Source of the DNA: Cordylochernes scorpioides
Lineage: Eukaryota; Arthropoda; Arachnida; Pseudoscorpiones; Chernetidae
Direction: 5' to 3'
Length of the DNA stretch: 64,000 bases
Assembly: GCA_030710605.1 (NCBI GenBank)
Contig: CP092874.1
Location: forward strand, 44,480,665 to 44,544,664
Shown: positions 21,330-62,720 of the stretch, piece by piece
How positions within the stretch are numbered: position 1 is the stretch's first letter
Layout of the letters: every line of letters starts with the position of its first letter
The notes under the pieces: generated by a model
The model's database searches: none
What the model saw: only the letters and a program-made list of their open reading frames with translations
What the model was told of the DNA's origin: nothing
Translations under genes and position numbers: made by a program

Positions 21330-21537
21330 AAGAAAATAAGACCTAATCCAAATAATTTATTAGTGTGTAACGTTTTGGCAACAATATTATCACCATCATC
21401 AGACAAAAGAATAAATTTCATTTTATTCTTTTGTCTGATGATGGTGACAATGTTGTTGCCGAAACGTCACACACTAATAAATTTGGATTAGGTCTTATTT
21501 TCTTTTATTATTATCTATAATCCAAATTGTGCTTTAT
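21330..21537 (+). mobile_element. Hammerhead-type foldback element, copy 1, 19-bp TSD
   Basis: Inverted arms (AGAAAATAAGACCTAATCC ... GGATTAGGTCTTATTTTCT) plus a one-sided tail ending in AATTGTGCTTTAT. A 19-bp direct repeat, CATTAATACTGAATAATAA, flanks it at 21311-21329 and 21538-21556. It is nested in a Tigger-like element. The duplication length is unlike that of any TA-, TTAA- or 8-bp-type DNA transposon. Confidence 0.85.
21431..21475 (+). ncRNA. Hammerhead-ribozyme-like motif (foldback copy 1)
   Basis: CTGATGA at 21435-21441, then a stem of about 8 bp (GGTGACAA with TTGTTGCC), then GAAAC and GTC at 21461-21468. Stem I would be TGT with ACA. Stem III is only ACGT, so cleavage would probably need two copies pairing. 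One unpaired base follows CTGATGA, a departure from the textbook core. Activity is inferred, not shown. Confidence 0.45.
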
Positions 21538-22439
21538 CATTAATACTGAATAATAATATAAATCTTTAGATGATAGGTTCTTCTTATCATTAACATACAT
21601 GTACCTCTATGTCTAATTTAAAAATCAAGACAAATCCTAGACAAAGTTTTATTAAATATATATTCAAAGATATAAAATGATTTTAAAACACCTTTATCAC
21701 ATTATATAATACAATGTTTGCTTGGAAAAATGGCTCTAACACCTTTTTGCTTCAAAGAACCCTTCAGGCATTGTACCGTCAACACGTACAATCGCTGCAA
21801 AAGTTGAGGTTGATTCCTCTTTGCAACAATTTTTAATAGCCTTCTATTTTATCTCTTATAATAGAAAATTTATTTTTTCTTATTTTAACATGTCCTGAAA
21901 TTTTGCCTGTGTTGTTTCACTTTGAAAAGTTCTGAAAATATCCTTTTTTTTTTTTTAAGGAATAACGTTTTTGTTTTTAGAATGCCTTTGTTTTCTTTAT
22001 TTTGGAAGCCATTTGCATTTTTTCTATTTCAAATTTAATGGATGAAAAGATATTCTATTTAATAAAAAGTATAATGTGTAAAAATTTATACAACATACAG
22101 CAAAAATAAAATGTAAATCAAAACAACAATGCCGCTAAATTTATTTTTTTGAAATCACGATCTGTGAGCTGAAACATGCTCAAAATTTTGTTGTTTTAAT
22201 TATTTTTTCAATTACAATTTTAAGTTCGTTATAAGCATAGTATTTTAAATAGATTTTATTATTTAGGGACTGTTAATAGGTTCGTTATAGAGGTAGTTCG
22301 TTATTTTAAAAATTGCAAAGTTCGTTATAACGATGGTATTTTCAATGGAATGGAATTGGGAATCGCCGTGGGTTCGTTATAAGGGAAGGTTTGTTATATC
22401 CAGGGTTCGTATTAGCAGAGGGTTTTACTGAATTATATA

Positions 22440-23751
22440 CTCGGTAGGATCAAAAAGTTCCTGAACTTTTAAAAAATAAAATATAAAACAACTTTTGAAA
22501 AATGTAAAATCAATTTTACTGTAAAGAACAAAGCCTAAACTATAATTTTAATTTAGCAATGCCAGTAAATGCGCATGTGTAGTTTTCATTTTAGGCATAT
22601 TTTTGTTGTAAGTATTTAGCTCGTGTCAGTTTCTGCAATGTCATCATATGAGCAAAGGGCAAATATTAAATTTTGTATAAAAAAAAAAAGTCTTTCACAG
22701 AGACATTAGCATTAATGAATGAAGCTTATGAAGATGAAAAATTGTCACAAACGCAAGTTTATTTCTGGTATAAACGTTTTAAAGATGGCCTTAAGAGCAT
22801 CGCAGAAGATTCAAGGTCAGGTCGGCCATTGACGTCAACAACGGATCGCAATATTAGACAGGTACGTGATTTAATTGTTGCTGATAGAAAAATTACTATT
22901 GATAATATATCAGAAATACTTGGAATTCCGTATGGTAGTTGCCAAAAAATTATTGGTGAACATTTAAACATGAAAAAACTTTGGGTTATTTTGTCCCACG
23001 AAATTTAACACATCAACAAAGAGAAACCAGATTATCAATTTGCAAAGATTTAATTGAATCTGCATATAATGATTATTATTTTTTAAAAACAATAATAAAT
23101 GGTGATGAAACATGGTGCTTTCTTTTTGATTCACAAACCAAAAAACAATCACTCGAATGGCACACACCAAGTTCTCCTAGGAATAAGAAAGTTTGTCTTG
23201 ACAAATCCAAAGGAAAAGTAATGCTTGTAGTGTTTTAGATTATCAAGGACTTGTCTATTATGAATTTATTAAAGAGGGAGTTACTATTAATAAACAGGCA
23301 TACAAAGAAATACTTGTGCGCCTTCGTGATGCGATAAGAAGAAAAAGAAACCAACTCTGTAAATCAAAACAGTGGAAATTGCTACATGATACATGGCTCA
23401 TAGCCATTATTGTTCAAGACTATTTAGCCAAACACTCTGTATCTTTCTTGCTGCATCCTCCTTACTCTCCTGATATCGCCCCATGTGCTTTCTTCTTCTT
23501 TCCAAAACTTAAAATGACGTTAAAAGGGAGGCGCTATTCATCGTCATCAGAAGTAATTGAAAATGCAACGGTGGAGCTAAACAAACTTAGAAAATTTGAC
23601 TTTAAACTATCATTTCAACAGCTTTTTTCACGCTGGAAAAAATGTGTAGGTAACCAAGGCTCCTATTCTGAAAATTTTGATGTTTAAATTACTATCTATG
23701 AATAAATAATTAATTTTTAAAAATGTTCGGGAACTTTTTGATCCTACCTTG
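22440..23751 (+). mobile_element. Mariner element, inactive
   Basis: 1312 bp, bounded by TA (22438-22439 and 23752-23753). The terminal inverted repeats contain GGTAGGATCAAAAAGTTCC at the left and its reverse complement near 23728-23748. The size is typical of mariner. It lies 9 bp downstream of the Tigger-like element. Confidence 0.9.
22638..23687 (+). pseudogene. Mariner transposase, broken
   Basis: From ATG 22638 (MSSYEQRANIKFC). The helix-turn-helix region is readable to about 23000 (QVYFWYKRFKDG, DSRSGRPLTS, VADRKITIDNIS). The catalytic region has NGDETWC near 23100 and YSPDIAPCAFFFFPKLK near 23465. The frame changes near 22985 and again near 23235, where the second catalytic aspartate should lie. 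The expected third aspartate (usually YSPDLAPCD) is replaced by alanine. The protein would have cut and pasted the element at TA sites. Confidence 0.88.
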
Positions 23752-23753
23752 TA

Positions 23754-24522
23754 TATATCCAAATAATATAATGAAACAGATTTATAAAGAAGTTAGATGA
23801 AAATATCATTAGAGCTGTGGTGTGACCTTTTATATGAAATGATCAATTGGTAATTAAATACCTCACCATCTGTTATAATGAAATTTGTTATGATTTTCAT
23901 GGAATGTTTTTTTTTTTTTAATGAAACTATTTCTTGTTGTCCTTTTTTTTTTTTTAATAATTAAGTCCAATTACAAGGTTATAAGACCAAATCCATATTA
24001 ATAAAAAGTGTAACGTTTTGGTAACAGTATTGTTGAATTTTATATTCAGTATTCAGAAGTTTGTTTTATGTATAAACGAAACATTAGTGCCTTAATGTTT
24101 TCCTTTCTATATATAGATGGCATGTTATTGCCCTATATCATCATTTTCTCCACATTAAATCACAAAAAATTCAAATTTCCTAATGATCATGCCCCGCCAC
24201 TTATGAAATCCTAATCTCACCTAAATGTTCCCTCTATTGTTCCGGTGACCCCATTTCCATTCCACCTAATTTTATCTCCTACAAGTAGATTTTTTTTCTT
24301 TTTACCCTAAAATTCCAAGTTGTCAGAAATACAAAAGAATTTCCATATATTCTCTGAGATAGTTTAAAAATAATCACTCTGCAAGCACTTAGTTTAAAAG
24401 GAACTAACTACCTTGAGTTCTTTTGTTTTACTAAATTACTCCTATAGTTTATAAATGACTCATTTCTGTGCCCCCAAGGGATGTAAAGAACTCTTTTTTT
24501 TTTTTTTTTAATATCAAAATTA
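23754..24522. other. Intron DNA without recognised features
   Basis: AT-rich. Near 23980-24040 there is a faint half copy of the foldback family (AAGACCAAATCCATATTAAT ... AACGTTTTGGTAACAG). Nothing else could be assigned. Confidence 0.4.
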
Positions 24523-26154: not shown

Positions 26155-29100
26155 TTATCTTTCTAGAAATTCCTTAAGTCTCGACACGTGCGCTAACGTG
26201 CTCTGGCGCCTACTATTTTCGTTGCGTCCGTCCTGTGGTCGTAACCTATATGTCGTTTCCTTGATTCTATCCGTTATTACGTACGGTCCTACGTATTTCG
26301 GCAGAAATTTCTCCGTTTTCCCTGGTTTCCTGCGAGACGACTCCAGTAGTACCAGGTCGCCCACTTCAAACTTCCGGAAGCGGTCACGGTTCGCAAGGTC
26401 ATACTGACACTTCGTCATCATTGTCCGGTCTCGGTAGTTTTCGTCGGCAATTTTCTTTAATCTCTCGTTTTCTAAGATGCGGTTGGTCACATATTCGTCG
26501 TAAGTTTTTACTGGCTCGTCGACGGTTGGTAGTCCTACGTCTAGGGACGTCCTCGGTTCTACGCCAAATATCAACTTATGCGGTGTCACCTGTGTCGACG
26601 ACTGAATGGACGAGTTATACGCAAAAGTCGCCGTTTTTACGAATCTCGGCCATTCGGCGTGATCGTCCTCGAGATAAACTCTGATGCCGTTTTTTATGAT
26701 GCCGTTGAGTTTTTCGCATAAGCCGTTCGTTTGCGGGTGTGCCGCGGAAGCCATAATATGTTTAATCCCGTACAACCGTGTAAAGTCTCTAAAAGTACTC
26801 GAATCGAAAGATTTGCCTTGATCGGATATTATGCATTTCGGAGTACCAAAAACGTAGAGCAGATTGTCTGAGAGTGCGTTGCACGTGGTTTCCGCCTTTG
26901 TATCTTTTACCGGGATTGCGAGTGCGTATTTACTAAAATGGTCTACGATCGTTAGAATGTGTTCGTAGCCTTCTACCGATTTTTTGAAAGGACCTTGGTG
27001 GTCTATTCCCACTCGTTCCCAGATGTCTGTTGCTGGTGGTAATGGTTCTAGCGGGGCTGCGGGTTTGAACCTCTGTGGTTTGAAGGCCTGGCACACTTTG
27101 CACGACCGAACGTATTTCCGCACGTCTTCTTCCAGACCTTTCCAGTAGAACCGTTGCTTAATACGGTGGACCGTCTTCGCTACCCCCATGTGTCCTGCCT
27201 CGGGTATATCGTGCGCTGTTTTCATTATTTCGGATACGCTTTGCTTTGGTGCTACGACCAACCATTGGTTACCTTGTGTTGCATGGTTCTTTTTATAAAG
27301 GATCCCGTTTATTTTTTTATATTCGTCCCGTGTTTTAGCGTCTGGTAGTTTCCCGGTAATATCGCGGCAAAACGTGTCTTCCTTTTGTCCGTTTTCGTCG
27401 ATCCGTACTGTGCATGCCGTTAAATCGTTGAAGTTGTCTTCGACGTTCGTATCGTTTTTGTGGAACGGGTTGCGTGAGAGTGCGTCCGGTGCAACGTTCT
27501 TCCTCCCTGCCTGGTGGACTATTTCAAAGTCGTGCTCCATGAGTTTTAACCCCCATCTAGTAAGTCTTGAGCACGGGTCACGTACGTTAGCTAGCCACGT
27601 TAACGCGCTATGGTCGGTTACGACTTTGAATTCTCTCCCGAAGATGTACGGCCATAACTTTTGTAGAGCCCAGACTATTGCTAAACACTCTAGTTCTGAG
27701 ATACCATATTTACTCTCGTGTTTCGATGTCGTTCTCGACAAGTAGTGGATCGGGTGCAAAAACCCGTCATTGTCCGGTTGCATTAGCACCGCGCCTAATC
27801 CCACGATTGATGCGTCCGTATGTATTTCTATTCTAGCGTCTGGGTTGAAGTGTGCTAGAATTGGCTCCTCAGTCAATTTTTTTTTTAAGGTTTCGAAAGC
27901 TTCTATTTCGGCCGGACCTATCACGAATTTCTTATCTTTTTCTGTTAAACACGTCAGCGGTTTGCTTATCTTCGAAAAGTTTTTTATGAAACGGCGATAA
28001 TAGCCGCAAAGTCCCAGAAACGAACGAACTTGCTTGACATTTTTCGGAATCGGAAATTCCTTAACCGCCTCGATCTTATCAGTAGCCGGTTCTACGCCGT
28101 TTTCCGATACCACGTGTCCCAAAATTGGTAACTTTTGGTAGGCGAATCTACATTTTGATGGTTTTAGGGATAAGCCTGCCCCGCGGAAACATTCTAGAAC
28201 ATTTGTTAACCGCACGTTGTGTTCACGTATGTCTCTTCCGTACACGATGACGTCATCTAGATAAACCATACACTCGGACCATTTCAATTCAGCTAACAGT
28301 GTATCCATGATTCTTTCGAAATGACCCGGTGCCCCGGTTAAACCAAAGGGTAACACTTGAAACTCGTACAACCCGTTACCTGTCGTGAACGCTGTAATTG
28401 GCTTGCTTGTTTCGTCCAGTGGACACTGCCAATAACCGCTAACAAAATCCGTGTGAGAGAAATACTTCATTCCCGCTAAACGGTCCAGGCAGTCGGTGAT
28501 ATCCGGTAATGGATATGAAAATTTTTCGGTTACGTTGTTAACTTTTCTATAGTCCACACAAAACCTATAGGATCCGTCTGATTTTTTAACCAAAACGACC
28601 GGGCTCGCCCATGGAGATGTTGATTTCCTAATAACTCCTTTTTCACACATTTCTTTAACCTGTTCCTCTATAATATCACGTTCCTTAGGACTGCGGCGAT
28701 AGGCTTTTTGTCGAATTGGTTCCGTGTTCGCTTTAAGTTTAATGTGGTACGGTTCGATATCTGCCGCCTTATTCCACTCTTCTGAGAAAAGTTCCCGATA
28801 CCTGTACAATACGTCCAGTACGTCGATTTTTTCGCTGTCCGATAGCTCCGGGTTTATATCGAACTTCTGTGGTTCGTATTTGCACGTGGCCGTCGTACTG
28901 TATCCCACCTGTTCACTTAGGAAAGAAACATTCGCTATTTCCCCGCCGGATCGTAACAAGCACGAGTTTGCTACCAACCGCACCGGCTCGTTCCTAGTAT
29001 TTATGACATCAATGAATATCTCGGATACCGTTTCGGAAACGTGTACTGATGGTATTAGTAGCCCCGTTCTTCTTACGCAGTCGGGGTGGGGTTCTAAAAT

Positions 29101-30909
29101 GCCCGCCATTACTGTTGGCCCTTTTAACTTAACCCTCGTTTTACAACGTGGTGCAATTTCAAGGTCGTCTAGTATGCAGTACTTTTGTTTGGGGTTTTTC
29201 CGATCGTTCGTAATTGTGCCTAACCTCTCGAGTTCCCGTTCTTCGTTTAGTTCTACCACGTGGTCGTCCGTGCCTATTTTTGGTCTATACAATTCTACCG
29301 ATTCGTCTCTAAACATAATTTTGCAATGATAGTTTGTTAGAATATCGACGCCGAAAATAATCTTTTCCCCGTTTCCTGGAATTATGGTGAACCTGCCACA
29401 TATGTCGAAACCATCAATGTTGACCTCCAAGTATGTGCACGTGTTCGAGACTACTGACCCACTTATTCCCCGTATAAGTAATTTTGAAGGCATTCTAGCA
29501 CATCCTAGTGCGTTGGCTATTCCTTCGTCTATGCAGCTAACATTTGCCCCTGAATCGAAAATCAGTTTGCCTACATGTGTCTCATTGATATGCGTGGTTA
29601 AACAGAAATTTGTCATACCTGTCCAACGGAATTTTTCCATTGCTGTACCCCCTATTTCTAAAGTGGATTTTTCTATTGGTACCTTATTTAATGTCTGTTT
29701 CTCGTTAACCCCCGGTTGTCCTTTTACCCTGAAGATTATGCGATTGGTGTTACCAGTAACTTCGGAAAATACACGTGGTACGCTCTCTACACTGTTTGAA
29801 ACTTCCACCACAGGATTAGAGGCAAAATTGTACTTACCACGTGGCCTCCTTTTCGGGCAATCCCAGTGTTTGTGCCCCGTCTGGTAACAAGTGAAGCATC
29901 TTGGCGTCCCGTCCGGTAGCATAAATCTTCTTGCTTTTTCCATGGGCGTTTCGGTCCTTGGATTTCGTCCTTGTTTTTGTTCCCACTCTTCCGCCGTCCT
30001 CGTAGTTGTTTCCCAACTCGTCGTTGTACCTGCCTCCGTCCGTTCCTTGTTCCATTTATCTGCTTCGTCGAGGAATTTCGCCGCCTGTAGGAAGTCGGCC
30101 TCTTCTGGGTTCCGCGTGGTGCTCCACGAGGCTGCCAGTAGTAGGCAGTCTTTTGGAGCCAATGCCCACAATGCCTCCTTGCTTGAATCAAACGGCGAAA
30201 ACTCGCCTGCCGTCGCGTGGGCCGTAATCAGTTTCATCAAATATCTCCCCGTATCTTCCGTGGACTGGGGCCGTCTCGTTTTCTTTAATTCGTTACCCCT
30301 ACTACGTGCCCGGCCGTCGTTCCTTGGGTAGCAAAGTTTTAGTGCTTCCAAGACGTCTTCAAGTGCGGCTGAAGGGTCAAACCTGCACTTGATAAATTCG
30401 CGGCCGTCAAGTGGAAGCCGCCGTACTAGGGCCTTCGTCCAGTCTCCCTTCGGTACCTTGCTCGCCGTCAGCCACGTCTTGAATTCCTCCACGTGGTCCT
30501 CGATGTCTTCCTCCTCCGGGTTGAAACACGGCGTCTCTCCGTAGCCGATATTTATGTTCGCTGCTTGAGGTGCTGGGCCGACACTGCTCTCCACCATGTG
30601 ATGAGGCTGAAGTGGGGATATAAAACTCAATTTATTGGTAGGTTGCAGTACATTGTCCTGGTGGGCTATGGTCACCATGGCCCGTTCCAGGGCTGGGCTT
30701 GTGGTCCGGTTCTGGAGGGTTGTTGAAGTCCGATTCTCTGCGGTATAGCCGTTGGGAGGGTTAGATCTGGTACAAGACATCTTTCGTTTGCCGGGCAAGG
30801 ATAAAAAGAAAAATAAATAAATAAAATAAAATGCACGAAGGTCCAACGATAACTGGCACGTTGTGTTTGTAAGCATTCCGCGAAAACGGTGGTCCGTGGT
30901 CAAATACAA
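26155..30909 (-). CDS. Gypsy-B Gag-Pol polyprotein (1584 codons, intact)
   Basis: A single frame. Its first ATG (30909) is inside the 5' LTR; the first ATG past the LTR, at 30597 (MVESSVGPAPQA), overlaps the primer site and is a more usual gag start. Domains by residue from 30909: Gag about 105-330, CCHC knuckle CFTCYQTGHKHWDC about 348, protease LIFDSGANVSCID about 450, RT with CVDYRKVNNVT, FVSGYWQCPLD, LPFGLTGAPGHFERIMD and catalytic VYLDDVIVYGRD about 880, RNase H IHTDASIVGLGAVL about 1035, integrase HHCC (HMGVAKTVHRIKQRFYW, CKVCQ) about 1255, the DDE core (GIDHQGPF, IISDQGKSFDSS, AAHPQTNGLCEKLN), and a GPY-like tail (KYVGPYVITDRI) at the end. All catalytic residues I looked for are present. 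It copies and integrates the element. Confidence 0.95.
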   Translation of the reverse strand: MYLTTDHRFRGMLTNTTCQLSLDLRAFYFIYLFFFLSLPGKRKMSCTRSNPPNGYTAENRTSTTLQNRTTSPALERAMVTIAHQDNVLQPTNKLSFISPLQPHHMVESSVGPAPQAANINIGYGETPCFNPEEEDIEDHVEEFKTWLTASKVPKGDWTKALVRRLPLDGREFIKCRFDPSAALEDVLEALKLCYPRNDGRARSRGNELKKTRRPQSTEDTGRYLMKLITAHATAGEFSPFDSSKEALWALAPKDCLLLAASWSTTRNPEEADFLQAAKFLDEADKWNKERTEAGTTTSWETTTRTAEEWEQKQGRNPRTETPMEKARRFMLPDGTPRCFTCYQTGHKHWDCPKRRPRGKYNFASNPVVEVSNSVESVPRVFSEVTGNTNRIIFRVKGQPGVNEKQTLNKVPIEKSTLEIGGTAMEKFRWTGMTNFCLTTHINETHVGKLIFDSGANVSCIDEGIANALGCARMPSKLLIRGISGSVVSNTCTYLEVNIDGFDICGRFTIIPGNGEKIIFGVDILTNYHCKIMFRDESVELYRPKIGTDDHVVELNEERELERLGTITNDRKNPKQKYCILDDLEIAPRCKTRVKLKGPTVMAGILEPHPDCVRRTGLLIPSVHVSETVSEIFIDVINTRNEPVRLVANSCLLRSGGEIANVSFLSEQVGYSTTATCKYEPQKFDINPELSDSEKIDVLDVLYRYRELFSEEWNKAADIEPYHIKLKANTEPIRQKAYRRSPKERDIIEEQVKEMCEKGVIRKSTSPWASPVVLVKKSDGSYRFCVDYRKVNNVTEKFSYPLPDITDCLDRLAGMKYFSHTDFVSGYWQCPLDETSKPITAFTTGNGLYEFQVLPFGLTGAPGHFERIMDTLLAELKWSECMVYLDDVIVYGRDIREHNVRLTNVLECFRGAGLSLKPSKCRFAYQKLPILGHVVSENGVEPATDKIEAVKEFPIPKNVKQVRSFLGLCGYYRRFIKNFSKISKPLTCLTEKDKKFVIGPAEIEAFETLKKKLTEEPILAHFNPDARIEIHTDASIVGLGAVLMQPDNDGFLHPIHYLSRTTSKHESKYGISELECLAIVWALQKLWPYIFGREFKVVTDHSALTWLANVRDPCSRLTRWGLKLMEHDFEIVHQAGRKNVAPDALSRNPFHKNDTNVEDNFNDLTACTVRIDENGQKEDTFCRDITGKLPDAKTRDEYKKINGILYKKNHATQGNQWLVVAPKQSVSEIMKTAHDIPEAGHMGVAKTVHRIKQRFYWKGLEEDVRKYVRSCKVCQAFKPQRFKPAAPLEPLPPATDIWERVGIDHQGPFKKSVEGYEHILTIVDHFSKYALAIPVKDTKAETTCNALSDNLLYVFGTPKCIISDQGKSFDSSTFRDFTRLYGIKHIMASAAHPQTNGLCEKLNGIIKNGIRVYLEDDHAEWPRFVKTATFAYNSSIQSSTQVTPHKLIFGVEPRTSLDVGLPTVDEPVKTYDEYVTNRILENERLKKIADENYRDRTMMTKCQYDLANRDRFRKFEVGDLVLLESSRRKPGKTEKFLPKYVGPYVITDRIKETTYRLRPQDGRNENSRRQSTLAHVSRLKEFLER

Positions 30910-31673: not shown

Positions 31674-33130
31674 GATAAAGCACAATTTGGATTATAGATA
31701 CAAGAATATAAGACATAATCCACCACTTTCCCCACTGCTATTTATATTATTTATCACGGACTTAATCGAAATTTATAACTCAGACCTGCCGAGTGTAAAT
31801 TTGCCAGAATTTGGAGATATCCATTTATTGCTGTACGCCGACGACATAGCAATTATAGGTGAGTCCAGGATGAACCTCCAAAAGAAGATCAAAATACTGA
31901 AAGAATATCTCGATGAGAACTTAATGACACTAAATGAGAACTTAATGACCAACAATAACAACTACTCACCCGGCAAATTACTTTAAAGGAAAAGCACTTA
32001 CAGTAATTAACGCCACCCACCCAATATTACTAAAATCAAAAGCAAAGTCAATAAATTTATCAATCAAACTCTTTGATACAATAGTGAGAGCTGTCCTGAT
32101 GTATGCCGCTCCATTGTGGGCAACAGAGCATAAAGACTTACTGGACAATATACAAGACATATTTATCCGTAGGTTCCTGAATCTGCCCAGATACACTCCA
32201 GGTTACCTAATCAGATTAGAAACCGGTCGTATCTCATTGAGTGTAACAGCCTTAAAATTAACCCTGAAGTATTGGCTGCGGGTGTTGAATATGAGCAGTG
32301 ACAGATTGCCACGTATATGTTTTAATAGAACACGGGAACTGTCTAATGCTTCGGGCACACCCATCGGTTTCATTAAAAAGCTCACCAATCTGCTTAACAA
32401 TAATGGATCCCCTGCACTTGTTTCCTGTGATGACCCTGAAACGCTGAGGAGCGCGATTACAGGGCTCTTAAAAACAGCGGCAGACCAATCTATACAAAAC
32501 GACCTTACAAGAATGGATAAATCTAAGCTATACTCTCACTACAAAGACATTCACATATCTTTCATGACAGAGGGATACCTTTTAAGAGATTTTCCTTTCC
32601 CGGTTGTAAGACTACTCGCACAAGTTAGAATACTTTCAAGTTTTTTTAGAGAAAACCACACCAAGATGCTCTGCGGTGAGGACCCGACTTGTACCTTCTG
32701 TAATTCAAAACTAAAAAATGAAATCACTCACTATATTTTTGATTGCCCTGCTCTGAAAGAAGAAAGAAGAACCCTTATGCTCAAAACTGGGCAACTCTGT
32801 GCTTCACTTCCATCAATAATTGACAATATGACCCAGAATAAGTATATTGCTACGGCGTTTTATGGTTTCCACAAGTCCATATCTCAGAAGAAGGCCAAGT
32901 GATACTCACTCCTCACTTTTTTTACTGCTACTCTTTTTGTGTTGATTTCTTGCTTCCCTCTTTCTTTTTTTTTTTTTCTTTTCTTGTTTTTTTTTTTTTC
33001 TTTTTCTTCTTACTCTGTATATATCGTTATTTCCTTTGTCTCACTGCTTTGTTCTTATGCATACCTCTGGTGAATCCTGTATAGGGTCAGTGACCCTAAA
33101 TAAAGGCTTTTTTGTTGTTGTTGTTGTTGT
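31674..33130 (+). mobile_element. LINE 3' half, second type
   Basis: Holds the end of a reverse transcriptase and its C-terminal region, a long pyrimidine-rich 3' UTR (32930-33010), AATAAA at 33099-33104, and a (GTT)n tail from about 33111. A GTT-type simple tail is typical of several LINE clades. A piece of foldback-family tail (AAGCACAATTTGGATTATAG) abuts its left end. Confidence 0.8.
31687..32902 (+). pseudogene. LINE RT C-terminal region, internally deleted
   Basis: The first frame (31687-31986) has LSPLLFILFITDLIEIY and the catalytic LLLYADDIAIIGES near 31820-31860. The frame is lost near 31970, and the next segment, 32084-32902, contains LMYAAPLWATEH, IQDIFIRRFLNLP and a cysteine motif CTFCNSKL...HYIFDCPAL near 32690-32750, then a stop at 32900. 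The RT thumb and part of the linker seem shortened. The clade was not assigned. Confidence 0.85.
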
Positions 33131-33321
33131 ATAAGACATAATCCAAATAAATTAATAGTGTATGATGTTTCGGTAACAGCATTGTTACCATCTTCAGACA
33201 AAATAATAATTGAATTTTTGAATTAAAAATGAATTATTTTTTGTCTGATATATGATGGTAACAACACTGTTATCGAAACGTCACACACTATTAATTTATT
33301 TGAATTAAGCCTTATTTTCTT
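33128..33321. repeat. Hammerhead-type foldback, copy 2
   Basis: Arms ATAAGACATAATCCAAATAA and TTATTTGAATTAAGCCTTAT. Right-arm core altered (CTGATATATGATGG ... ATCGAAACGTC). Inserted directly after, or sharing, the LINE simple tail; no clear TSD. Confidence 0.8.
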
Positions 33322-34625: not shown

Positions 34626-34815
34626 AATCTAATCCAAATAATTTAATAGTGTGTGACGTTTCAGCAACAGCATTGTTATCATCATCAGACAAAAAAATAA
34701 AAAAATCTATTTCTAAAAACATTTTTTATTTTTTATTCATTTTCTGATGATGGTGACAATGCTGTTGCCGAAACGTCACACACTATTAAGTTATTTGGAT
34801 TAGTCTTATTTTCTT
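34626..34815. repeat. Hammerhead-type foldback, copy 3
   Basis: Arms TAATCCAAATAATTTAATAG and TAAGTTATTTGGATTAG. The right arm keeps an intact core: CTGATGA at 34744-34750, then a GGTGACA/TGTTGCC stem, then GAAACGTC at 34770-34777. Confidence 0.85.
34741..34783 (+). ncRNA. Hammerhead-ribozyme-like motif (foldback copy 3)
   Basis: CTGATGA, a 7-bp stem with one unpaired T before it, GAAAC and GTC. A compensating G-T/A-T pair differs from later copies, which supports the stem. The predicted cut is after the C at 34777. Here stem I is poorly formed because TTT precedes the core. Confidence 0.4.
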
Positions 34816-35269
34816 GCATTAATATTTATTAACACAAAGCAATAACGCGCCATCTATTAAAATATTTTTCAATTTGTCTCTTGATTTTATAAAAAGTTAT
34901 GGTAGAATTATTTTGTATATACTTTTCAAAGTAAAATCTACATCGCTTAATAAAATATTTTCGGTCTTAATCCTCTTTTCTTTCTTAATTTTTTAATTAG
35001 CCTTCTTTTTTATAATTTTAATTAACAGAATTATAATTGATGTTCAATAACTTATATAGAAGCTTTTGCATAGTTTCGTCCTGTAAGCTTATAACTTGAT
35101 TTCCCTTTGACATTGCTTGATACGAACCTCTTTACATTTTGAAATTAGTAGAAATCAGACGATAACCATAGGTCATAGCCATTCAAAAGTTGGTTTAGGT
35201 CATCAATCCATTGCGAACAAATGGAAATATTCACACCGGCGCTCTCTCCGCAGATTTTTAAAATAATAT

Positions 35270-35780: not shown

Positions 35781-36249
35781 TGTACATATGTTATATTCAA
35801 ATGACATATATGTAGGGATAATTTTATTGTTAATTTTCATTTTGATGTATTGTATAATTTTGATCATTAATAAATTATCTTTTAGGTATCAAAACTGCCT
35901 TTTTGTTCAAACACAGTAACGTTTGAATGGGTATAGCTAGGTGGAGCAGAGTATCAAACATAAAGTTATCTTATCAAGTATAGATCAAGTTGGGATTGGA
36001 TGTTTGCTAGAATTGTTTTAACAAATGTTCGTTAGACAAACCTTTGCTCGGGTAAAAACCAGGCGAAGCCAGGTACATTCACTATTCTCTAATATATGGA
36101 ATATTTATATTATTGTAATCATCTTTATTCCTATTTTAATTTGGTCTATCTATTTCATATCTTCTAATCCACTTGTTTGTGAAACCAATAGGATAATCAG
36201 ATTGTTCTAGTTCTGCTCTAATTTTCATTATCTCTTTTTTTATAAATAT

Positions 36250-36460
36250 TGATAAGGCACAATTTGGATTATAGATTATAAACACAAGGTAATAAGACTA
36301 AATCCAAATAAATAAATAGTGTGTGACGTTTCGGTAACAGCGTTGTTACCATCTTCAGACAAAAGTACTGAATGAGACTTTTGTCTGAAGATGGTAACAA
36401 CGCTGTTACCGAAACGTCACACACTATTTATTTATTTGGATTTAGTCTTATTACCTTGTG
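36250..36460. mobile_element. Hammerhead-type foldback, copy 4, 14-bp TSD
   Basis: Starts TGATAAGGCACAATTTGG and ends CTTATTACCTTGTG. TTTTTTATAAATAT flanks it at 36236-36249 and 36461-36474. The two arms are almost perfect inverted copies around AAAAGTACTGAATGAGAC. The left side carries an extra 32-base tail outside the inverted arm. Inserted in the PLE RT. Confidence 0.9.
36381..36425 (+). ncRNA. Hammerhead-ribozyme-like motif (foldback copy 4)
   Basis: TGT, CTGAAGA at 36385-36391, stem GGTAACA/TGTTACC with loop ACGC, then GAAAC and GTC at 36411-36418, then ACA. The left arm carries the same motif on the minus strand. The third-from-last base of the first core box is A instead of T, a position known to tolerate change. 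Confidence 0.45.
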
Positions 36461-36910
36461 TTTTTTATAAATATCTTGGTCTATGCATACCTGTTTGGTT
36501 CTTTGTACAAGATATTTTATCACCTGTCTTTTATGTATTATAGGATTATTGGAATTAAAATTTAGATGTATACCACAGTCTGTTGGCTTTCTGAAAACGC
36601 TGGTTAAAATAGAACCATCTACTTTGCGAGTTAGTCCTACCTCTAAGAATGATAAAAATCTTTCTCTTTCTATCTCAACCATGAATTCTATTCCTCTTTC
36701 TAAATTATTCAACATGACCATGATTTCATTAAGATTTTTTTTGCGGATCACTGCGAAAATATCATCTATATATCGTCCTCAGACTTTTATTCCCTCAATC
36801 AAGATTGCCTTTTTATCTTCTGATGCCATTACAATGTCAGCAATGTTCATGCTTGTAGGGCAACCCATAGCAGTGCCCGTCCTTTTGCCTGTAAAATTTA
36901 CCCCCATATC

Positions 36911-37404
36911 GATAAGGCACAATTTTGATTATAGATTATAAACACAAGGTAATAAGACCAAATCCAAATAAATAAATAGTGTGTGACGTTTCGGTAACAG
37001 CGTTGTTACCATCTTCAGACAAAAGTATTGAATGAGAAATTAACTTTTAAACTCGACTAATAAAATGAGAATTTGAGATGAATGAGAAATTTTACCACAG
37101 CATGTTTTAAAATAGTTACTGTTATCAAGTGTGTAAACAAGATAACAGATAAGAAGAAGATATTTATCTGAGAAACACAGAATATTATTCTTAGAATTAA
37201 AAGTGGAAAAAACCCAAACCCAAAAAAAAAAAAAAAATTGGGTTTTTTCCACTTTTAATTCTAAGAATAATATTATGTGTTTCTCAGATAAATATCTTCT
37301 CCTTATCTGTTATCTTGTTTACACACTTGATAACAGTAACTATTTAAAAACATGCTGTGGTAAAATTTCTCATTCATCTCAAATTCTCATCTTATTACCT
37401 TGTG
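36911..37404. mobile_element. Hammerhead-type foldback, copy 5 (long form), 14-bp TSD
   Basis: TTTACCCCCATATC flanks it at 36897-36910 and 37405-37418. It has the same tail and left arm as copy 4, but the middle is a second palindrome of about 330 bp (37060-37390) centred on a poly-A/poly-C junction near 37222. The right arm lacks its own ribozyme motif. Inserted in the PLE RT, so it is younger than the PLE. Confidence 0.9.
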
Positions 37405-45338: not shown

Positions 45339-45342
45339 AATA

Positions 45343-47381: not shown

Positions 47382-47465
47382 ACACTATTAATTTATTTGG
47401 ATTTGGTCTTATTTACCTTTAAGTTCTAATCTATAATTTAAATTGTGTCTTATCATTTGATAATA

Positions 47466-47639: not shown

Positions 47640-47884
47640 TACTTGAAATAAAATAATTGACAATAATATAAAATAATTTGAGTTAATTGGTTGTTGATCC
47701 ATTCATTATAGGAAAGAAAGGGCACCTGTAAAGTTCTTCAGTATGGTGAAATAAAAAGGACAACAAATGTTTCGAGGGATTGTTCTCTCTCTATCTAGGT
47801 TTATTGATTTTAATGGGAAAACTCTTACATATAGATCCACTATTCCCTTATATAATAAGCCAAAATTTGGATTATAGATTATAC

Positions 47885-48447
47885 ACACAAGGTAAGAAGA
47901 AACTCATCTCGAGAAACCTTGTAGCATTATTTAATTAATCAATACAGTACACAACACTTACATATCAAAGTAAGCAGAGAAGCCATCCTGTATACCAGGG
48001 TTTCAGATAATGACCATCAGTAGTGACATCCTAGGGAAGTCATTTAACCATTTTAATTTGACAAGATGTTTTAGCTGGTGTGTTGGATAAACATTTTATA
48101 TAAGGGAATATAAACACAAGGTAATAAGACCAAATCCAAATAAATAAATAGTGTGTGGTATTTCGGTAACAGTGTTACTAAAACGTCACACACTATTTAT
48201 TTATTTGGATTTGGTCTTATTACCTTGTGTTTATATTCCCTTATATAAAATGTTTATCCAACACACCAGCTAAAACATCTTGTTGTCAAATTAAAATGGT
48301 TAAATGACTTCCCTTGGATGTCACTACTGATGGTCATTATCTGAAACCCTGGTATACAGGATGGCTTCTCTGCTTACTTTGATATGTAAGTGTTGTGTAC
48401 TGTATTGATTAATTAAATAATGCTACAAGGTTTCTTGAGGTGAGTTT
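47885..48447. repeat. 560-bp near-perfect palindrome around a foldback (copy 11)
   Basis: Arms of about 270 bp: AGAAACCTTGTAGC at about 47918 matches, inverted, AAGGTTTCTTG near 48426. The centre (48118-48232) is a shortened hammerhead-type foldback. The palindrome also includes about 200 bp on each side that is not part of the foldback family, so flanking DNA was duplicated in inverted order. The arms differ at only a few bases. Confidence 0.88.
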
Positions 48448-48464
48448 ATTTTTTTTATTAGAGT

Positions 48465-48640
48465 AGAACCTCTATGAGAGGACACTCACACTAGAGGACA
48501 CCTCTCTATAAAGGACAGATTTCAGTTGCAAAATTACCATTTTTACTATTTATCAACTCTCCGGTAAGAGGGCACCTCTCCTTAAAGGACACTTTGGTTC
48601 TGTAATTAGGTGTTGTCCTTTACAGGGAGGTTCTATTGTA
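48465..48640. repeat. GTCC-type MITE, copy 5 (reverse orientation)
   Basis: Begins AGTAGAACCTCTATG and ends CAGGGAGGTTCTATTG. Internal order reversed relative to copies 2-4. Confidence 0.82.
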
Positions 48641-49702: not shown

Positions 49703-49910
49703 TGATATGGCATAATTTGGATTATAGATTATAAAAACAAGGTAATAAGACTAAATCCAAATAAATAAATTATGTGTGACATTTCGGTACCAGTGTTGTT
49801 ACCATCTTCAGACAAAAGTACTAAAACATTTTGTCTGAAGATGATAAAGCTGTTACTGAAACGTCACATACTATTTATTCATTTAGATTTGGTCTTATTA
49901 CCTTGTTACT
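49703..49910. repeat. Hammerhead-type foldback, copy 12
   Basis: Starts with the tail (GATGGCATAATTTGG), both arms present, cores mutated (right arm CTGAAGATGATAAAGC ... GAAACGTC). Confidence 0.82.
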
Positions 49911-50714: not shown

Positions 50715-52205
50715 GCACAATTCAAGCATATTTCAATAGAATGATCTTTGCAGATTGGTTCTTTGCTTTTTTTGCATTGCATTTGAGTTTGACAATCTTT
50801 TTTACATAGGTAGCATCTTTTGCATTTTTTGGGACAAGGACCGCTGCTTGTGGATTCCTAGAGAACACACATTATTGATATTTCGTATAAAAATCAAATA
50901 AATATTTGCCTACTTCAAGTGATGAAGTTCCAGCATGCTTCTGAATTAATATGCAGATCTCTTGACAAAATTTTGGTTTGATTTCGCATATTCAAGGCAT
51001 CTCTCATTAGTTGTAGAGCAAGCTGCTTTATAGAATCTTTTTGAGCCATTCCACCGTCTTGCTTGACAGCCTTATAAATTACTGCTGAATTTATTACAAC
51101 CACATCCACAAAGTTAAAAAATAAACACTAAGGCCATCTTTTGGGTCTTCTTCCAACAGAATACACGGCACATTTCTGATCAACTACATCCACCCCACCT
51201 TTGGTCATATAAAATATGATTGTCTCGGGCTTTTGTTGTTCAGCAGTTTCTTGACCAATTGTTGTGGTCGAATGCATTGTGGAGAGTAATGTATCAGGTT
51301 TTCCAATTTTAGGGACATAGGATACCAAAGTTTTGTTTTTTGAAAAACCAAAAGTGGAACTGAACTGTGGTTGCCTTTTGTTTGGCAGAAATTCTGGGGG
51401 GATTTCTCTTTTATTGGATCTGATTGTACCACCAAGGTCAATTTGTGTTCTTCTAGGAGAGAATCAGCCAATGAGACACTGGTATACCAATTATCAGTTG
51501 TGATGTTGCGACAGATACCAGATATTGGCTGCACCAAACGCTTGACAATTTCATCAGGCGAGTTGCTCTTTTGGTAGGGACCTTCAGGCTGTTTCCCAGC
51601 ATATACATCCCATATTTGATGTGAAATATGTGCGAGAATCAGCAAGTAAAACTATTTTAATTCCATTTCTTTTTGGCTTGCTTGGAATATATTGATAAAA
51701 TCCACATTTTCCTCTGAATCCCACCAATTGCTCATCAATGGTGCAATATTGGGCAGGTGAATACATTATTCAAAAATTGTAAACCAGGTCTTGAAAAACT
51801 TCTCTAATAGCAGCAAGTTTATCAAGTGACTTTCTAGTTTCCCTACTTGATATATCATCAAATCTGATGCATTTCAAAAGAAATAGAAAGCGTTCTGCAC
51901 TCAATACAGCTCTACATATTTCTATACAAGTCCCATCGTCAGCCTATATTTCCTTATATGATTGTCGTTAAGCACATTTTACCCCTGTAAGATATAGAAG
52001 CCCAATAAAAGCTCTCATTTCAATAAAATTGGTATCTTTAGCACAGCATTCTCTAGTGTATCTGTCTTTGATTTTAGAAATGAAAAGATTAGTATAGATA
52101 ACTATATTATCTATCATTTTTTTAGTAATAAATAATTCAAAAGCTTCCATGGGAGTACTCACATTTTTGGCAGGTCCTTTGGGTACAGGAAGATGAGTAA
52201 TTATG
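50715..52205 (-). pseudogene. piggyBac transposase, catalytic and C-terminal part, frameshifted
   Basis: Reading from 52205 leftward: GPAKNVSTPMEAFELF, then MRAFIGLLYLTG. The first catalytic block is TIDEQLVGFRGKCGF with YIPSKPKRNGIKI (51600-51760). The second is ITTDNWYTSVSLADSLLEEH (about 51500). The third is TKGGVDVVDQKCAVYS with RRPKRWP (51130-51200). The C-terminal cysteine-rich domain is near 50725-50860 (CKRCYLCKKDC, CKDHSIEICLNC). All three catalytic aspartate motifs are present, but at least four frame breaks or stops occur. It moves DNA by cut and paste at TTAA. Confidence 0.92.
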
Positions 52206-56320: not shown

Positions 56321-56655
56321 AACACTTCCTTTAATTCAACCGAAAGCTCTGATCCCTTGGGGTGTTGAATTAAAGAGGTTCGACTGTATAAGTATTTTTT
56401 AATTGGGTCTGAAGAAGGTAGCAACACACAAGCTGAAATATTACTTGTAGAGCTATCATCATCCTGTAGTAGGAACACAGTTCTTCAGATCCTGAATTCT
56501 TTAAACTGGAATCTTCAAGTGATGACTTAGCATCAACATTGATATTCTCTCACTTCTTTTCACTGATTTTCTTACACAAAAATAATATAAATGTTGGTAC
56601 TAAGCGAACACCATTTCACTCTGTTCTCTTACCTCTTCATAAATTCAGACCATTC

Positions 56656-56805
56656 TATAAGAAAATAAGACCTAATCCAAATAAATTAATAGTGTGTGAC
56701 ATTTTGGGAACAGTATTGTTACCATCATCAGACAAAAGATGTCACACACAATTTATTTGGATAAGTCTTATTTTCTTGTAATCCAAATTGTGCTTTATCA
56801 TTCAG
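56656..56805. repeat. Hammerhead-type foldback, copy 13 (short)
   Basis: Left arm AGAAAATAAGACCTAATCC; the right arm is truncated and lacks the core, followed by the tail AATCCAAATTGTGCTTTATC. The left arm still has the inverse of the core. Confidence 0.8.
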
Positions 56806-57989: not shown

Positions 57990-58066
57990 GAATACTGTGA
58001 TGATGGTAACAATACTGTTACCGAAACGTCACACACTATTTATTTGGATTTGGTCTTATTACCTTT
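57990..58066 (+). repeat. Solitary foldback half with hammerhead-like core
   Basis: A single right arm: TGATGATGGTAACAATACTG, GTTACC, GAAACGTC, then ATTTGGATTTGGTCTTATTA. The left arm is absent, and the base before TGATGA is G rather than C. Confidence 0.75.
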
Positions 58067-58069
58067 TGG

Positions 58070-58908: not shown

Positions 58909-59104
58909 GTGAGTTTGATGACTCTCTTCCTTCCTTCTAGTGTTTCAACATAAAACTGGGGCCACACAATGTGAAATGTCAAGCTAAAATTTGGAACAGT
59001 ATAGTTCTCTTTAAATCAAATTTTCTTCTTATCTGCTATCTTGTTTGCACACTTGATAACAGTAATAAATATTTAAGAACCTGCTGTGATAGTTTTTCTT
59101 ATTC
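58909..59104. other. CHP1 intron 3 start, piece of the long foldback interior
   Basis: 59010-59100 matches part of the inner palindrome of foldback copy 5 (CTTATCTGCTATCTTGTTTG). No coding signal past the exon 3 donor. Confidence 0.6.
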
Positions 59105-59195
59105 AGTCTTTTGTCATGATGATGGTAACAATGCTGTTACCAAACCATCACACACTATTTATTTATTTGGATTTGGTCTTATTACCTTTTGTTAA
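59105..59195 (+). repeat. Foldback right half, copy 15
   Basis: GATGATGGTAACAATGCTG, GTTACC, then an altered core (AAACCATC), TTATTTGGATTTGGTC. Solitary, continuing from the palindrome fragment to its left. Confidence 0.75.
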
Positions 59196-59445
59196 GTATG
59201 GAAAATAAAATTAAAACACTTATGGCCTCTTAATATATAAAAATAAATCAGATAAGTATACATATAACTATAAGACACCTTGATGCAGAAAGTGTCTTTT
59301 AGGAAAAAGTGTCCAATGAGTTGCTAATTAGTGAGAAAGGTAACTTTGACAATGGAATCTGTTCTCTAAACATCCTCTAGCGTAAGTATCTCCTTTCTCT
59401 ACTCAAGGTAATAAGACCAAATCTAGATGATAAGGTACAATTTGG

Positions 59446-60376
59446 ATTATCTTCTTATATATAAAAGTCAATTTCTGTTTTCTGTTTCACGATAAACTTA
59501 AAAACTACTACCCCAATTGGTACCAAATTTTGCACGTTACTTTTTATAAACCTGAGGAAAATTTTCAGCTACATTTTTATTAGTATTTTTGGCTATTTAC
59601 TTTTTTTCTTTTTTTCACGCAGAGTAAATACAAGGCAAAGTAACAACACCAGGCCAATTAAGCGACCAATGAGCGTTCTGCATTTTTTTCAAGTTGCTTG
59701 CTTACTTTTTTTAAAATATCTTTTATACGAGTGTTATTTTTTTTTTACAAAAGTATCGAGTATTGAGAGAGAAATTTATATTACTAAGTTACAGTAAGTG
59801 CACACAATGCAATTTTAAAAAACTTTACAAAATTAGCGTTACTCTATGTAAATAATGGCTTTCGTATTTTTTATTAATCTTTGTTCTGGCTTTATCTCTT
59901 TAAAAAAATCGTTTAAAATGCAGTCGCAGTCATTAGCAAACACATGTTTGCCTAATTTCCATGTGCTCTTTTATTTTTTACAGAAAAATATTTACATGCC
60001 AGTATTTTGGATTAATTTTTTTTTATAAATTATTTTTTATTATTCTTACTGAGAAGGTGGGCATCGCAGTCACTCACTCAACTCGGGCAATTTCAAGGGT
60101 TAATGCACTGCGCCGGGTACCTCGGGGGTTGGGTGGAAAAGCTGCCATCTATTTAAACTATATTGATTTTGAAACAACTAAATGGATTGCAAAAAAAAAT
60201 TAAATCAAATACCTAAAAACTGATATAATACAATTTTTGCCATCACGCACACTTTTTGCCTGTGGTTTATGTGTTACTTCTGCATTGCTATTCTATGGCA
60301 CTTCTACTATTTATTATTGATGTACTTTCAGTATGAAGGAAATTGCACTCTGGCGAAGCCGGGTCATTTGTCTAGT
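59446..60376 (+). mobile_element. Helentron-like non-autonomous element (HINE)
   Basis: The 5' part reads CTTATATATAAAAGTCAATT and then CGATAAACTTAAAAACTAC and TTGGTACCAAATTTTGCAC; the 3' end reads GGCGAAGCCGGGTC and then TTGTCTAGT. Both are recurrent landmarks of Helentron-associated elements in arthropods as I recall them. No terminal inverted repeats and no protein. A GC-richer part at 60055-60150 is unexplained. Confidence 0.6.
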
Positions 60377-60765
60377 AGATTATAAACACAAGGTAATACG
60401 ACCAAATCTAGATAAGGTACAATTTGGATTATAGATTATAAACACAGGGTAATAAGACCAAATCCAAATAAATAAATAGTGTGTGACGTTTCGGTAACAG
60501 CGTTTTTACAGTCTTCAGACAAAAGTACTGAATGAGAAAATTTACCACAGCAAGTTTTAAATAGTAATTATTATCAAGTGTGTAAACAAGATATCAGATA
60601 AGAAGATTTTTTTCTGAGAAACACAGAATATTATTCTTAGAATTAAAAGTGGAAAACCCACTTTTAAAAAAATAATAATATAGTGTTTGGTAACAGTGTT
60701 GTTACTGAAACGTCACATATATTTGGATTTGGCCTTATTACCTTGTGTTTATAATATGTAATCCA
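60377..60765. repeat. Hammerhead-type foldback, copy 16 (long form, composite)
   Basis: Two tails in tandem (60380-60450), a left arm with near-intact core, an interior matching the palindrome of copy 5, and a short right arm (GTTACTGAAACGTCAC). Outer tail near 60745-60775. Confidence 0.75.
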
Positions 60766-60789
60766 AATTGTGGTTTATTATAACCCTCT

Positions 60790-61260: not shown

Positions 61261-61539
61261 ATAGATAAGGTAGATGAATATAGTCTATAAAGTCATTTTA
61301 ATAAAATTGTTGTTTTTCAATGGCTTAAAAACAAAAGTTTGATTGGTTACTCCTACTGGTTATTACCTTAATTGAGGAAAATTTTATAAACTTTAGCCTG
61401 TATCTAAAAATGGTATTACTATAATATTTTAATAAAATAAAATTATTTAAAAAGTTTTATTCTTGTATACATATATAATATGATATGTTTACTTGTTCTT
61501 TCCAAATTTGTGTCTTTTAATACCCTATATATAACTACA
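61261..61539. other. AT-rich intron DNA
   Basis: Nothing recognised. Confidence 0.4.
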
Positions 61540-61733
61540 AGGTATTAAGACCAAATCCATATCAATTAATAGTGTGTGATGTTTCGGTAACAGCATTGTT
61601 ACCATTCAGTCCTTTTGTCTGATGATGGTAACAATACTGTTACTGAAATGTCACACACTATTTATTTATTTGGATTTGGTCTTATTACCTTGTAGTGTTT
61701 TAATCTTCAATCCAAATTCTGCCTCATCAAATG
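61540..61733. repeat. Hammerhead-type foldback, copy 17
   Basis: Arms ACAAGGTATTAAGACCAAAT and TTGGTCTTATTACCTTGTAG. Right arm CTGATGATGGTAACAATACTG, GTTACTGAAATGTC; left arm inverse of GAAACATC. Tail AATCCAAATTCTGCCTCATC. Confidence 0.85.
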
Positions 61734-62542
61734 GTTCCAATTAAAAATTGACTTCCCAAGATAAGTTTCCCAGTTATTATTATTTTTTTTTTTTTTTTGT
61801 CGTTTTACAAAAGTAGTGACTCAGAGATTTTATACTGCATTAACTTAAAAATTTAATACTTGAAAGCTGTTTTTCACATGTGTAGACATGTGGTGTACTT
61901 ACAGTAAAAAGCAGTCTCCAAATTCTACCCACCATGAATACAATGGCCTGTACCACGTATACCTGGGATAATAATAAAAAGAAATTGAATGAAGATTTTA
62001 AATAAGCTTAGCATTTTTTGATAGTCTTGTTGTCCTTCCCACCTGACTGTTTGTTCTACCTCAACACCTCTCTGTCTGTTTACCTTCAAACATTACACCC
62101 AATTCTCTCGAGTAAAGTTGAAGTAAGAAATATTTGTCATAACTAGGGCTCTTCATTCCAGAAACCAACGCTTCAATTCCAGCAAAATTCCTAATTCTAC
62201 CCATATCTTAGTTAACCCCCCCCCCCCAGTGCCTGAACCTCCCACAAGAAGGAAATCTGCTGTTGCTGTACCATTCAATTTCACCATCATCACCTTGACA
62301 TCCTGTAATCAAGTGTGAAACTTATTACCTTCTCTCTATAATTTTATTCTGTCATTACAATATCCTCCCCATTAGTGACTGACCTTAAAGAAGTGTTTAC
62401 CTGTTCTCATCTTTAGATGGTTATTTGTTGGTTGGATTAGTTGTTTTTGATTTTATAAAGTTAAATAAAAAAATGGTTCATTCATATAAGATTATGATCT
62501 AGGTGAAGCTAAGATCTCTCTCACAAAAGAATCCTGTACAAT
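61734..62542. other. Intron DNA with a fragment of repeat R
   Basis: 61863-61975 is a fragment of repeat R (TTTTTCACATGTGTAGACATG in two parts). A poly-C run lies at 62217-62226. At 62101-62152 is a 52-bp segment repeated at 63350-63402. Confidence 0.5.
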
Positions 62543-62720
62543 CACAAGGTAATAAGACTAAATCCAAATAAATAGTATGTGACGTTTCGGTAACAGTATT
62601 GTTACCATCTTCAGACAAAAGTGCTGAATCTGTTAACACAAAAGTCCACACTATTTATTTATTTGGATTTGGTCTTATTACCTTATGTTTATAATCTATA
62701 ATCCAAATCGTGCCTTATCG
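62543..62720. mobile_element. Hammerhead-type foldback, copy 18, reversed, 12-bp TSD
   Basis: Starts CACAAGGTAATAAGACT and ends with the tail ATCGTGCCTTATCG, so it lies opposite to copies 4-6. ATCCTGTACAAT flanks it at 62531-62542 and 62721-62732. The left arm keeps the inverse core; the right arm has lost it. Confidence 0.9.

Follow-up and report, generated by a model that had tools for sequence, protein, structure and literature searches.

Hammerhead-bearing foldback repeats in the pseudoscorpion Cordylochernes scorpioides as probable minimal two-ended insertions of a Penelope-like element

Introduction

According to PMC11167929, Penelope-like elements (PLEs) form a third class of eukaryotic retroelements, and little is known of how they insert. 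Inverted pseudo-long terminal repeats (pseudo-LTRs), a one-sided tail and short target duplications are already published for Penelope (PMC3846280, PMC8969392), as are minimal hammerhead ribozymes within pseudo-LTRs (PMC7761336). Here, we analyzed a 64,000-nucleotide stretch of the genome of the pseudoscorpion Cordylochernes scorpioides (the window; C12:44480665-44544664 in an assembly of 2.62 Gb in 24 contigs) for its foldbacks, short inverted repeats whose arms carry such a hammerhead, and followed these through the genome. A preliminary description, made from the window alone, had taken them for short non-autonomous retroelements mobilised by Penelope-like enzymes. We consider it likely that they are instead minimal PLE insertions without an open reading frame (ORF), made by priming at both ends from unequal start sites and by end joining in the middle.

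Several described systems resemble the foldbacks in part. The Penelope elements of Adineta vaga reportedly carry an inverted pseudo-LTR beside the 5' one, with an optional 31-bp tail on one of them, and show 8-10 bp duplications, head-to-head palindromic junctions and pseudo-LTRs around unrelated DNA (PMC3846280). The inverted pseudo-LTRs, the one-sided tail and the palindromic head-to-head junctions are common to both systems. The A. vaga elements differ in being few and mostly provided with an ORF or cargo, the tail is optional, and self-priming on an antisense template is proposed there; in the pseudoscorpion, the exact foldback centre occurs at 1,689 places (40 examined), unequal ends are nearly the rule and duplications are mostly 12-13 bp. 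A second parallel is the Poseidon element PAc of the green anole, whose enzyme cleaves and extends both strands, which has a hammerhead at the ORF start and AT-rich targets (PMC11167929). The hammerhead and the AT-rich targets are found here as well, cutting and extension of both strands are proposed here, and the foldback tail corresponds to what is described for PAc, in which the tail is the stretch of RNA between two alternative internal reverse-transcription start sites (PMC11167929). The foldback ribozymes also resemble the minimal type I hammerheads of PLEs, with a core and stem II, almost no helix III and a palindromic ACGU, which reportedly lie for the most part dispersed in non-coding DNA (PMC7761336). 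Animal non-LTR retrozymes share with the foldbacks the character of short hammerhead repeats and reportedly differ in forming small repeats in tandem, with type I hammerheads and a circular RNA (PMC7229834). What is new here is the one-tail rule at scale, together with the ORF-less stubs; a literature search returned no title or abstract on ORF-less hammerhead foldbacks in bulk or on a one-tail rule, which is not proof of absence.

Results

The exact foldback centre is its own reverse complement and, as a search pattern, fixes 15 nucleotides (nt) of each arm. It occurs at 1,689 places in the genome, compared with none for the reversed control. The preliminary description had suggested collecting copies genome-wide and scoring the lengths of their target duplications; we did so for 40 of 50 listed places, all on contig C1. 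At a score of at least 10, reached by 5 of 1,560 controls, target duplications were found in 28 of the 40 copies, with lengths of 10-21 bp and most commonly 13 bp (11 copies), these lengths being upper bounds where the target resembles the end of the arm. The ends of the copies are unequal. Typing for the presence of the tail gave 31 copies with one tailed and one tail-less end, one with two tails, one with none and seven in which one end fell between the cut-offs, so that the one-of-each arrangement holds in 31 of the 33 fully typed copies (P 6.5e-8 against random ends). The centre junctions, in turn, are almost all different, with 39 distinct sequences among the 40 copies. Three more listed places, whose centre was the same as that of a neighbour 10-80 kb away, had been left out; the count is 39 of 43 if they are included. 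Most of the centres have extra, missing or overlapping bases and are not perfect palindromes, while some, such as that of locus L083, are perfect. None of the 40 fetched copies has room for an ORF between its arms. Because the search pattern fixes 15 nt per arm, this sample says little on the inner ends.

The source of the arms was sought in longer copies. Seven of the 14 full pseudo-LTRs of the foldback family that were read at their 5' boundary follow immediately on one and the same ORF end, which has 4,697 first-look candidates in the genome and, among the 150 that were scored, frames of up to 860 codons. At one locus (L105, C17:4329130-4329600) the ribozyme is identical and the tail near-identical to those of the foldbacks (94% over reference positions 180-306), and an ATG 17 nt past the tail lies in a frame (C17:4329382-4331961) that spans exactly 860 codons and has the C-terminal piece of the family at its end. 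The previous copy ends just upstream, in tandem, and the base after the tail is an A, which explains why several foldbacks have an additional A next to the tail. Neighbouring copies of the C-terminus within 6.5 kb of one another (24 pairs in 150 listed places) are head-to-head in 21 cases, tail-to-tail in one and tandem in two. A foldback arm is the same pseudo-LTR with ribozyme and tail that precedes the 860-codon frame in this genome. Three hallmarks of a PLE are present: a pseudo-LTR with a minimal hammerhead before the ORF and again behind it (L105; 7 of 14), a tail of about 30-40 bp on one of two inverted ends (31 of 33 foldbacks and 11 of 11 loci of a sister family, below), and a variable short target duplication together with 5' truncation. 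In the window, a coding remnant beside foldback E56 (56460-56546, minus strand) matches the N-terminus of the 860-codon parent over 29 amino acids (69% identity, E 9e-8).

The insertions of the window, and the reverse transcriptase (RT) remnant that hosts two of them, are as follows (strand given where assigned; complementary DNA, cDNA; long interspersed nuclear element, LINE; ref, position on a 306-nt arm reference).

21328-21538: foldback E21 (B subtype); left end tail-less, right tailed; repeat 21311-21329/21538-21556, 19 bp exact
23973-24034, minus: single arm E24, from a profile match
31674-31722, minus: E31, single tailed end, 5'-truncated, next to or within a LINE-type RT frame
33131-33321: foldback E33 (B subtype); flanking repeat not found
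34629-34824: foldback E34 (B subtype); left arm truncated; flanking repeat not found
36085-37617, minus: PLE reverse transcriptase gene remnant, 5'-truncated; hosts E36a and E36b; not of the foldbacks' parent family
36236-36249, plus: E36a target duplication, copy 1 (copy 2, 36461-36474; 14 bp exact)
36251-36463: foldback E36a; left end tailed, right tail-less; arms identical over 87 nt; inside the Penelope RT remnant
36911-37408: insertion E36b; left arm a full-length pseudo-LTR with tail (36911-37216), right arm a tail-less pseudo-LTR with internal deletion (37239-37408); duplication 36897-36910/37405-37418, 14 bp exact
39470-39682: foldback E39; left end tailed, right tail-less; duplication 39453-39468/39680-39695, 16 bp exact
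43612-43814: foldback E43; left arm truncated, right tailed; repeat not found
44014-44233: foldback E44a (B subtype); an extra A-subtype arm fragment (44014-44053) fused to the left arm
44534-44587, minus: E44b, 5'-truncated single end with tail
45251-45341: single arm E45; possible, very short opposite arm
46846-47455: foldback E46; right arm interrupted by another repeat (about 46975-47381)
47855-48238: one insertion, E47b+E48; duplication 47841-47855/48234-48248, 15 bp exact
49704-49907: foldback E49; left end tailed, right tail-less; duplication 49690-49703/49907-49920, 14 bp with 1 mismatch
56659-56799: foldback E56 (B subtype); left end tail-less, right tailed; duplication 56643-56658/56800-56815, 16 bp with 2 mismatches
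57998-58068, plus: single arm E57b, tail-less, from a profile match
59020-59193, plus: E59a, single long pseudo-LTR arm (from ref 56), tail-less
60366-60779: insertion E60; both ends tailed; left arm near full-length pseudo-LTR, right arm internally deleted; extra arm fragment at left; repeat not found
61530-61728: foldback E61; left end tail-less, right tailed; repeat not found
62543-62719: foldback E62; left end tail-less, right tailed; duplication 62531-62542/62721-62732, 12 bp exact

The five direct flanking repeats that the preliminary description had read by eye (19, 14, 14, 16 and 12 bp) were all recovered by script at those lengths, and three more were added, giving eight insertions with a duplication. 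The script was run on 15 inverted pairs and called a repeat at a score of at least 11. Seven of the 15 reached this score, compared with a maximum of 9 among 210 mismatched left/right flank pairs and with 5 of 1,500 random places of the same geometry (maximum 13). The repeats of E49 and E56 are the weakest, since both score 11. The eighth, at E47b+E48, appears once 47855 and 48238 are taken as the ends of one insertion; it came from a comparison of left with right ends up to 3 kb apart (54 combinations), for which none of 333 distant controls scored 10 or more. This exact repeat rules out an earlier candidate, in which the two arms of E48 formed a tail-less foldback of their own. The repeats had also been placed outside the consensus ends. 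This part does not stand for several of them (about 9 nt at 21311; TTT at 36461, 37405 and 39680), which overlap the end of the arm itself, and the window repeat lengths are therefore upper bounds. Among window pairs with both ends complete, 10 of 12 have one end of each kind (P 0.019), or 11 of 12 if E47b-E48 is one insertion; the left end of E44a was counted as tail-less by hand, as the script's tail-plus call came from the neighbouring arm fragment. At the tail-less end, target and RNA share a microhomology of at least 3 nt in 4 of 6 A-subtype cases (P 9.4e-5), a count that excludes the B-subtype foldbacks E21 and E56.

The shared plan of the arms, with a tail, CTGANGA, a stem, GAAAC and GTC, proved to be real, and the earlier figure of about 17 copies or halves is slightly too low. 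Fourteen matches to CTGANGA..GAAACGTC were found in the window by regular expression, two of which overlap (39591 and 39603) and one of which, at 57324, may be chance; a profile search gave 41 arms or arm pieces, and manual grouping of these yields about 15 inverted pairs, with about 9 arms left single or partial. In the sense of the RNA, an arm consists of an upstream part, the hammerhead (CTGANGA, a 7-bp stem II with a bulged T, GAAAC and GTC), about 42 nt and then the optional 32-nt tail. The outer ends fall mainly at two positions 32 bp apart, with or without the tail. The inner ends range from ref 1 to 260; in our reading of the alignment, about 25 of the 41 lie at 180-217, just upstream of the ribozyme or within its 5' half. 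The arms of E36b and E60 are full-length or nearly so, and the short foldbacks are therefore the same structure with a 5' truncation. Reading the inner ends as transcription starts, on the strength of an initiator-like TCAGT, is not upheld by their scatter of about 15 nt. Three arm fragments of 30-40 nt (ref about 246-287) stand 3' of an arm or tail (44014-44061, 59401-59450 and 60366-60415), as if reverse transcription had begun, halted and jumped.

Across 33 window arms, the ribozyme core departs from the consensus in 4 of 297 non-CpG cells, compared with 101 of 1,248 in the downstream part (Fisher 4e-6) and with 14 of 301 across the ten columns that adjoin the core (P 0.029 against the core). 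The core is intact in 17 of the 22 window arms that span the ribozyme. Because core changes are rare and most spanning arms are intact, the source lineage seems to keep the ribozyme. Stem III is AC/GT alone, with no loop, and the arms continue through the cleavage site. For the transcript of a whole foldback, the predicted structure is a hairpin of about -149 kcal/mol. The foldback ribozymes come from the parent and, within foldback RNA, are predicted to be buried in a near-perfect hairpin. Rfam at its gathering score found a tRNA alone and no hammerhead in the window, and a scan of viral contigs for the foldback ribozyme gave no match.

The RT remnant that hosts E36a and E36b was a candidate for the parent of the foldbacks and was rejected, because its family has a hammerhead and tail of its own, distinct from those of the foldbacks. 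This sister family is large (18,883 first-look candidates, with many open frames of 808-814 amino acids among the 150 scored), and one of its loci (L031) matches RVT_1 (9.9e-9) and GIY-YIG (6.2e-6). Pfam gave no match for the two RT pieces of the window; protein homologs did match. Both outermost inverted ends were present in 11 of 20 fetched sister loci, the other nine being without a usable outer pair in the fetched stretch; locus L045, which has opposite arms, was left out of the count, as the right one continues into an ORF. One end is tailed and the other tail-less in all 11. Ten of these have a duplication, of 12 bp (exact) in six, of 14 bp in one and of 17, 18 and 20 bp with one mismatch each, and L042 has none; 4 of 358 controls scored 10 or more, with a maximum of 13. 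The sister loci thus obey the foldback plan, and the foldbacks are that plan with almost nothing inside.

The same 20 loci provided empty sites, a comparison that the preliminary description had proposed. In 34 paralogous copies without E36a the flanks adjoin, with an overlap of 14 nt in 26 and of 12 nt in 8; among 33 copies without E36b, the overlap is exactly 14 nt in 19. The remaining overlaps are of 12 or 19 nt, where alignment ends shift. Because the adjoining flanks overlap in this way, the 14-bp repeats of E36a and E36b are each present once in the empty site. In-frame removal of E36b restores the RT frame, and that of E36a leaves a one-base shift at a T-run.

Within the window, the two arms of a pair differ less from each other than do arms paired by shuffling (0.143 compared with 0.188; 14 pairs; 0 of 20,000). 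For tailed arms of different copies, the distance among themselves is no smaller than that to tail-less arms (mean difference 0.004, P 0.65; 34 quartets, drawn from 9 window elements). Copying of the foldback as a whole would be expected to give an arm-specific grouping, and none was seen in this test.

Other repeats lie beside the foldbacks. The repeat within the right arm of E46 (46975-47381) is itself inverted, CTCGCATGTG.../...CACATGCGAG, and a palindromic repeat at 37810-37906, which starts with AAGCCCGGCGGACGTA and ends in its inverse, is unrelated to the foldbacks. No foldback arm was found by profile search before 21.3 kb of the window. LTR and LINE frames are mostly in the GC-richer first part, where several large open frames lie within 1-30909 (Gypsy-type at 26155-30909 and 7018-9066, Copia-type at 10431-12920 and an RT frame at 541-3441). 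A remnant at 51208-51651 (minus strand) resembles the Pfam transposase DDE_Tnp_1_7 (PF13843), just under the curated cut-off. Elsewhere in the genome, other hammerheads are very common: a broad pattern gave 36,626 matches (about 100 listed) compared with 3,483 for the reversed control. An example is C1:5965536-5966917, with CTGACGAGGGCCATTAGCCCGAAACCATGGTC, and with CTGATGAGGGCCAACAGCCCGAAACGCGTC in tandem at a 338-bp period; these hammerheads look like animal retrozymes.

Discussion

Our preferred explanation starts from a PLE in which a pseudo-LTR with a minimal hammerhead both precedes and follows the ORF, and whose RNA would offer two internal sites for the start of reverse transcription, separated by 32 nt. 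The enzyme would cut the two target strands about 12-13 nt apart, as the duplications suggest, and each freed 3' end would prime cDNA on the PLE RNA. One cDNA would begin at the far site and give the tailed end, the other at the near site and give the tail-less end, a split that may reflect an asymmetric dimer. Both would in many cases end shortly beyond the ribozyme, after roughly 85-125 nt, and end joining would unite their 3' ends, in some cases with a few untemplated or microhomologous bases. The product would be a head-to-head inverted repeat with unequal ends within a target duplication. Each end of an insertion begins at one of two fixed positions of the RNA, as would be expected if the cut target primed synthesis from internal start sites (PMC11167929). 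Priming of both target strands is suggested by the fixed-start ends that occur on both sides in opposite senses, and at 47855-48238 two separate cDNAs are visible. The left part of that insertion is a 46-nt tailed cDNA (ref 305-260); the right part is a tail-less cDNA that folded back at 48172, in ribozyme stem II, with a 1-nt centre, and copied its own arm plus about 210 nt (by eye) of the right flank in inverse.

This last event speaks for an alternative in which one strand is target-primed and its cDNA then snaps back on itself to copy the second arm, akin to the self-priming idea of PMC3846280. The stretch at 47873-48474, a 600-bp near-palindrome of element arms and inverted flanking target, is a preserved snap-back event, and some foldback centres are perfect palindromes, as snap-back would leave them. 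Such copying predicts, as at 48172, a copy of the arm's own end followed by flank, whereas the tail is one-sided in nearly all typed foldbacks and most centres are not perfect palindromes; moreover, the 48172 insertion itself has its separate tailed cDNA at the other end. We regard snap-back as an improbable general route. The proposal of the preliminary description, that foldbacks are transcribed and re-inserted as units, draws on their high copy number and on the absence of room for an ORF. Against it stand the 39 distinct centres among 40 copies and the lack of grouping among tailed arms, so that neither unit copying nor propagation in the manner of a short interspersed element fits, and we hold it to be very unlikely. 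With nearly every centre junction unique, the foldbacks do not form a self-copying family, and each looks like a fresh, 5'-truncated, two-ended product. The other half of that proposal, RNA-mediated movement by Penelope-type machinery, is borne out by the variable duplications, the two outer-end positions and the shared pseudo-LTR. The small size and inverted repeats do recall miniature inverted-repeat transposable elements or Foldback elements of DNA transposons, which are nonetheless hardly conceivable here: their symmetric terminal repeats and fixed-length duplications contrast with the unequal ends and the 10-21 bp found, some single ends are 5'-truncated while their 3' ends are fixed, and the sequence serves a long element as its pseudo-LTR. 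Retrozymes, whose circular RNAs arise by self-cleavage and are reverse transcribed by borrowed enzymes (PMC7229834), would account for a hammerhead with a conserved core and are just as implausible, since stem III has no loop, the arms pass straight through the cleavage site and stand head-to-head, not as tandem units with a helix III, and retrozyme-like hammerheads of other sequence occur elsewhere in the genome.

Several observations weigh against minimal two-ended PLE insertion. No duplication was detected by score in 12 of the 40 genome copies, or by script in 7 of the 15 window pairs (E33, E34, E43, E44a, E46, E60 and E61). The one-tail rule has exceptions, E60 and L086 with two tails and L059 with none, and seven of the 40 copies have an end between the cut-offs; all 40 come from one contig. 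The 20 sister loci were chosen for long frames or paired RT matches. The 69-residue C-terminal piece of the 860-codon frame has no significant match to Pfam, P0062 or the sister PLE, and the parent is for this reason called a PLE on its architecture and pseudo-LTR. In only 6 of 28 cases is the partner the nearest of all arms, which makes the window arms by themselves weak evidence for fresh copying; many window copies are old or from close relatives. The arms of E62 and E49 differ at subtype positions, which one RNA template does not explain. Finally, the two start sites of PAc are used in vitro without a strand difference and without target homology (PMC11167929), whereas in the foldbacks the sites of the two ends are almost always different and there is microhomology at the tail-less end.

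The subtype differences of E49 and E62, together with the A/B junction of E44a, hint that two RNAs can serve one insertion. The junction itself is either a template switch or an insertion beside an older copy. In a broader proposal, to which we give even chances, PLE integration is asymmetric and two-ended by rule, with a dimer, far and near sites and possibly two RNAs; the foldbacks are its shortest products, and thousands of dispersed minimal hammerheads in animals are largely the same.

On the two-ended reading, the foldbacks are natural readouts of single insertions, which preserve the stagger of the cut (about 12-13 nt), the two start sites and their split between the ends. They also record where cDNA synthesis stopped and the scars of joining, in numbers sufficient for statistics. 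Two-ended stubs could be the reason for the dispersed minimal hammerheads of this genome, and they offer a simple reason for the element-less minimal hammerheads that are scattered in animal genomes.

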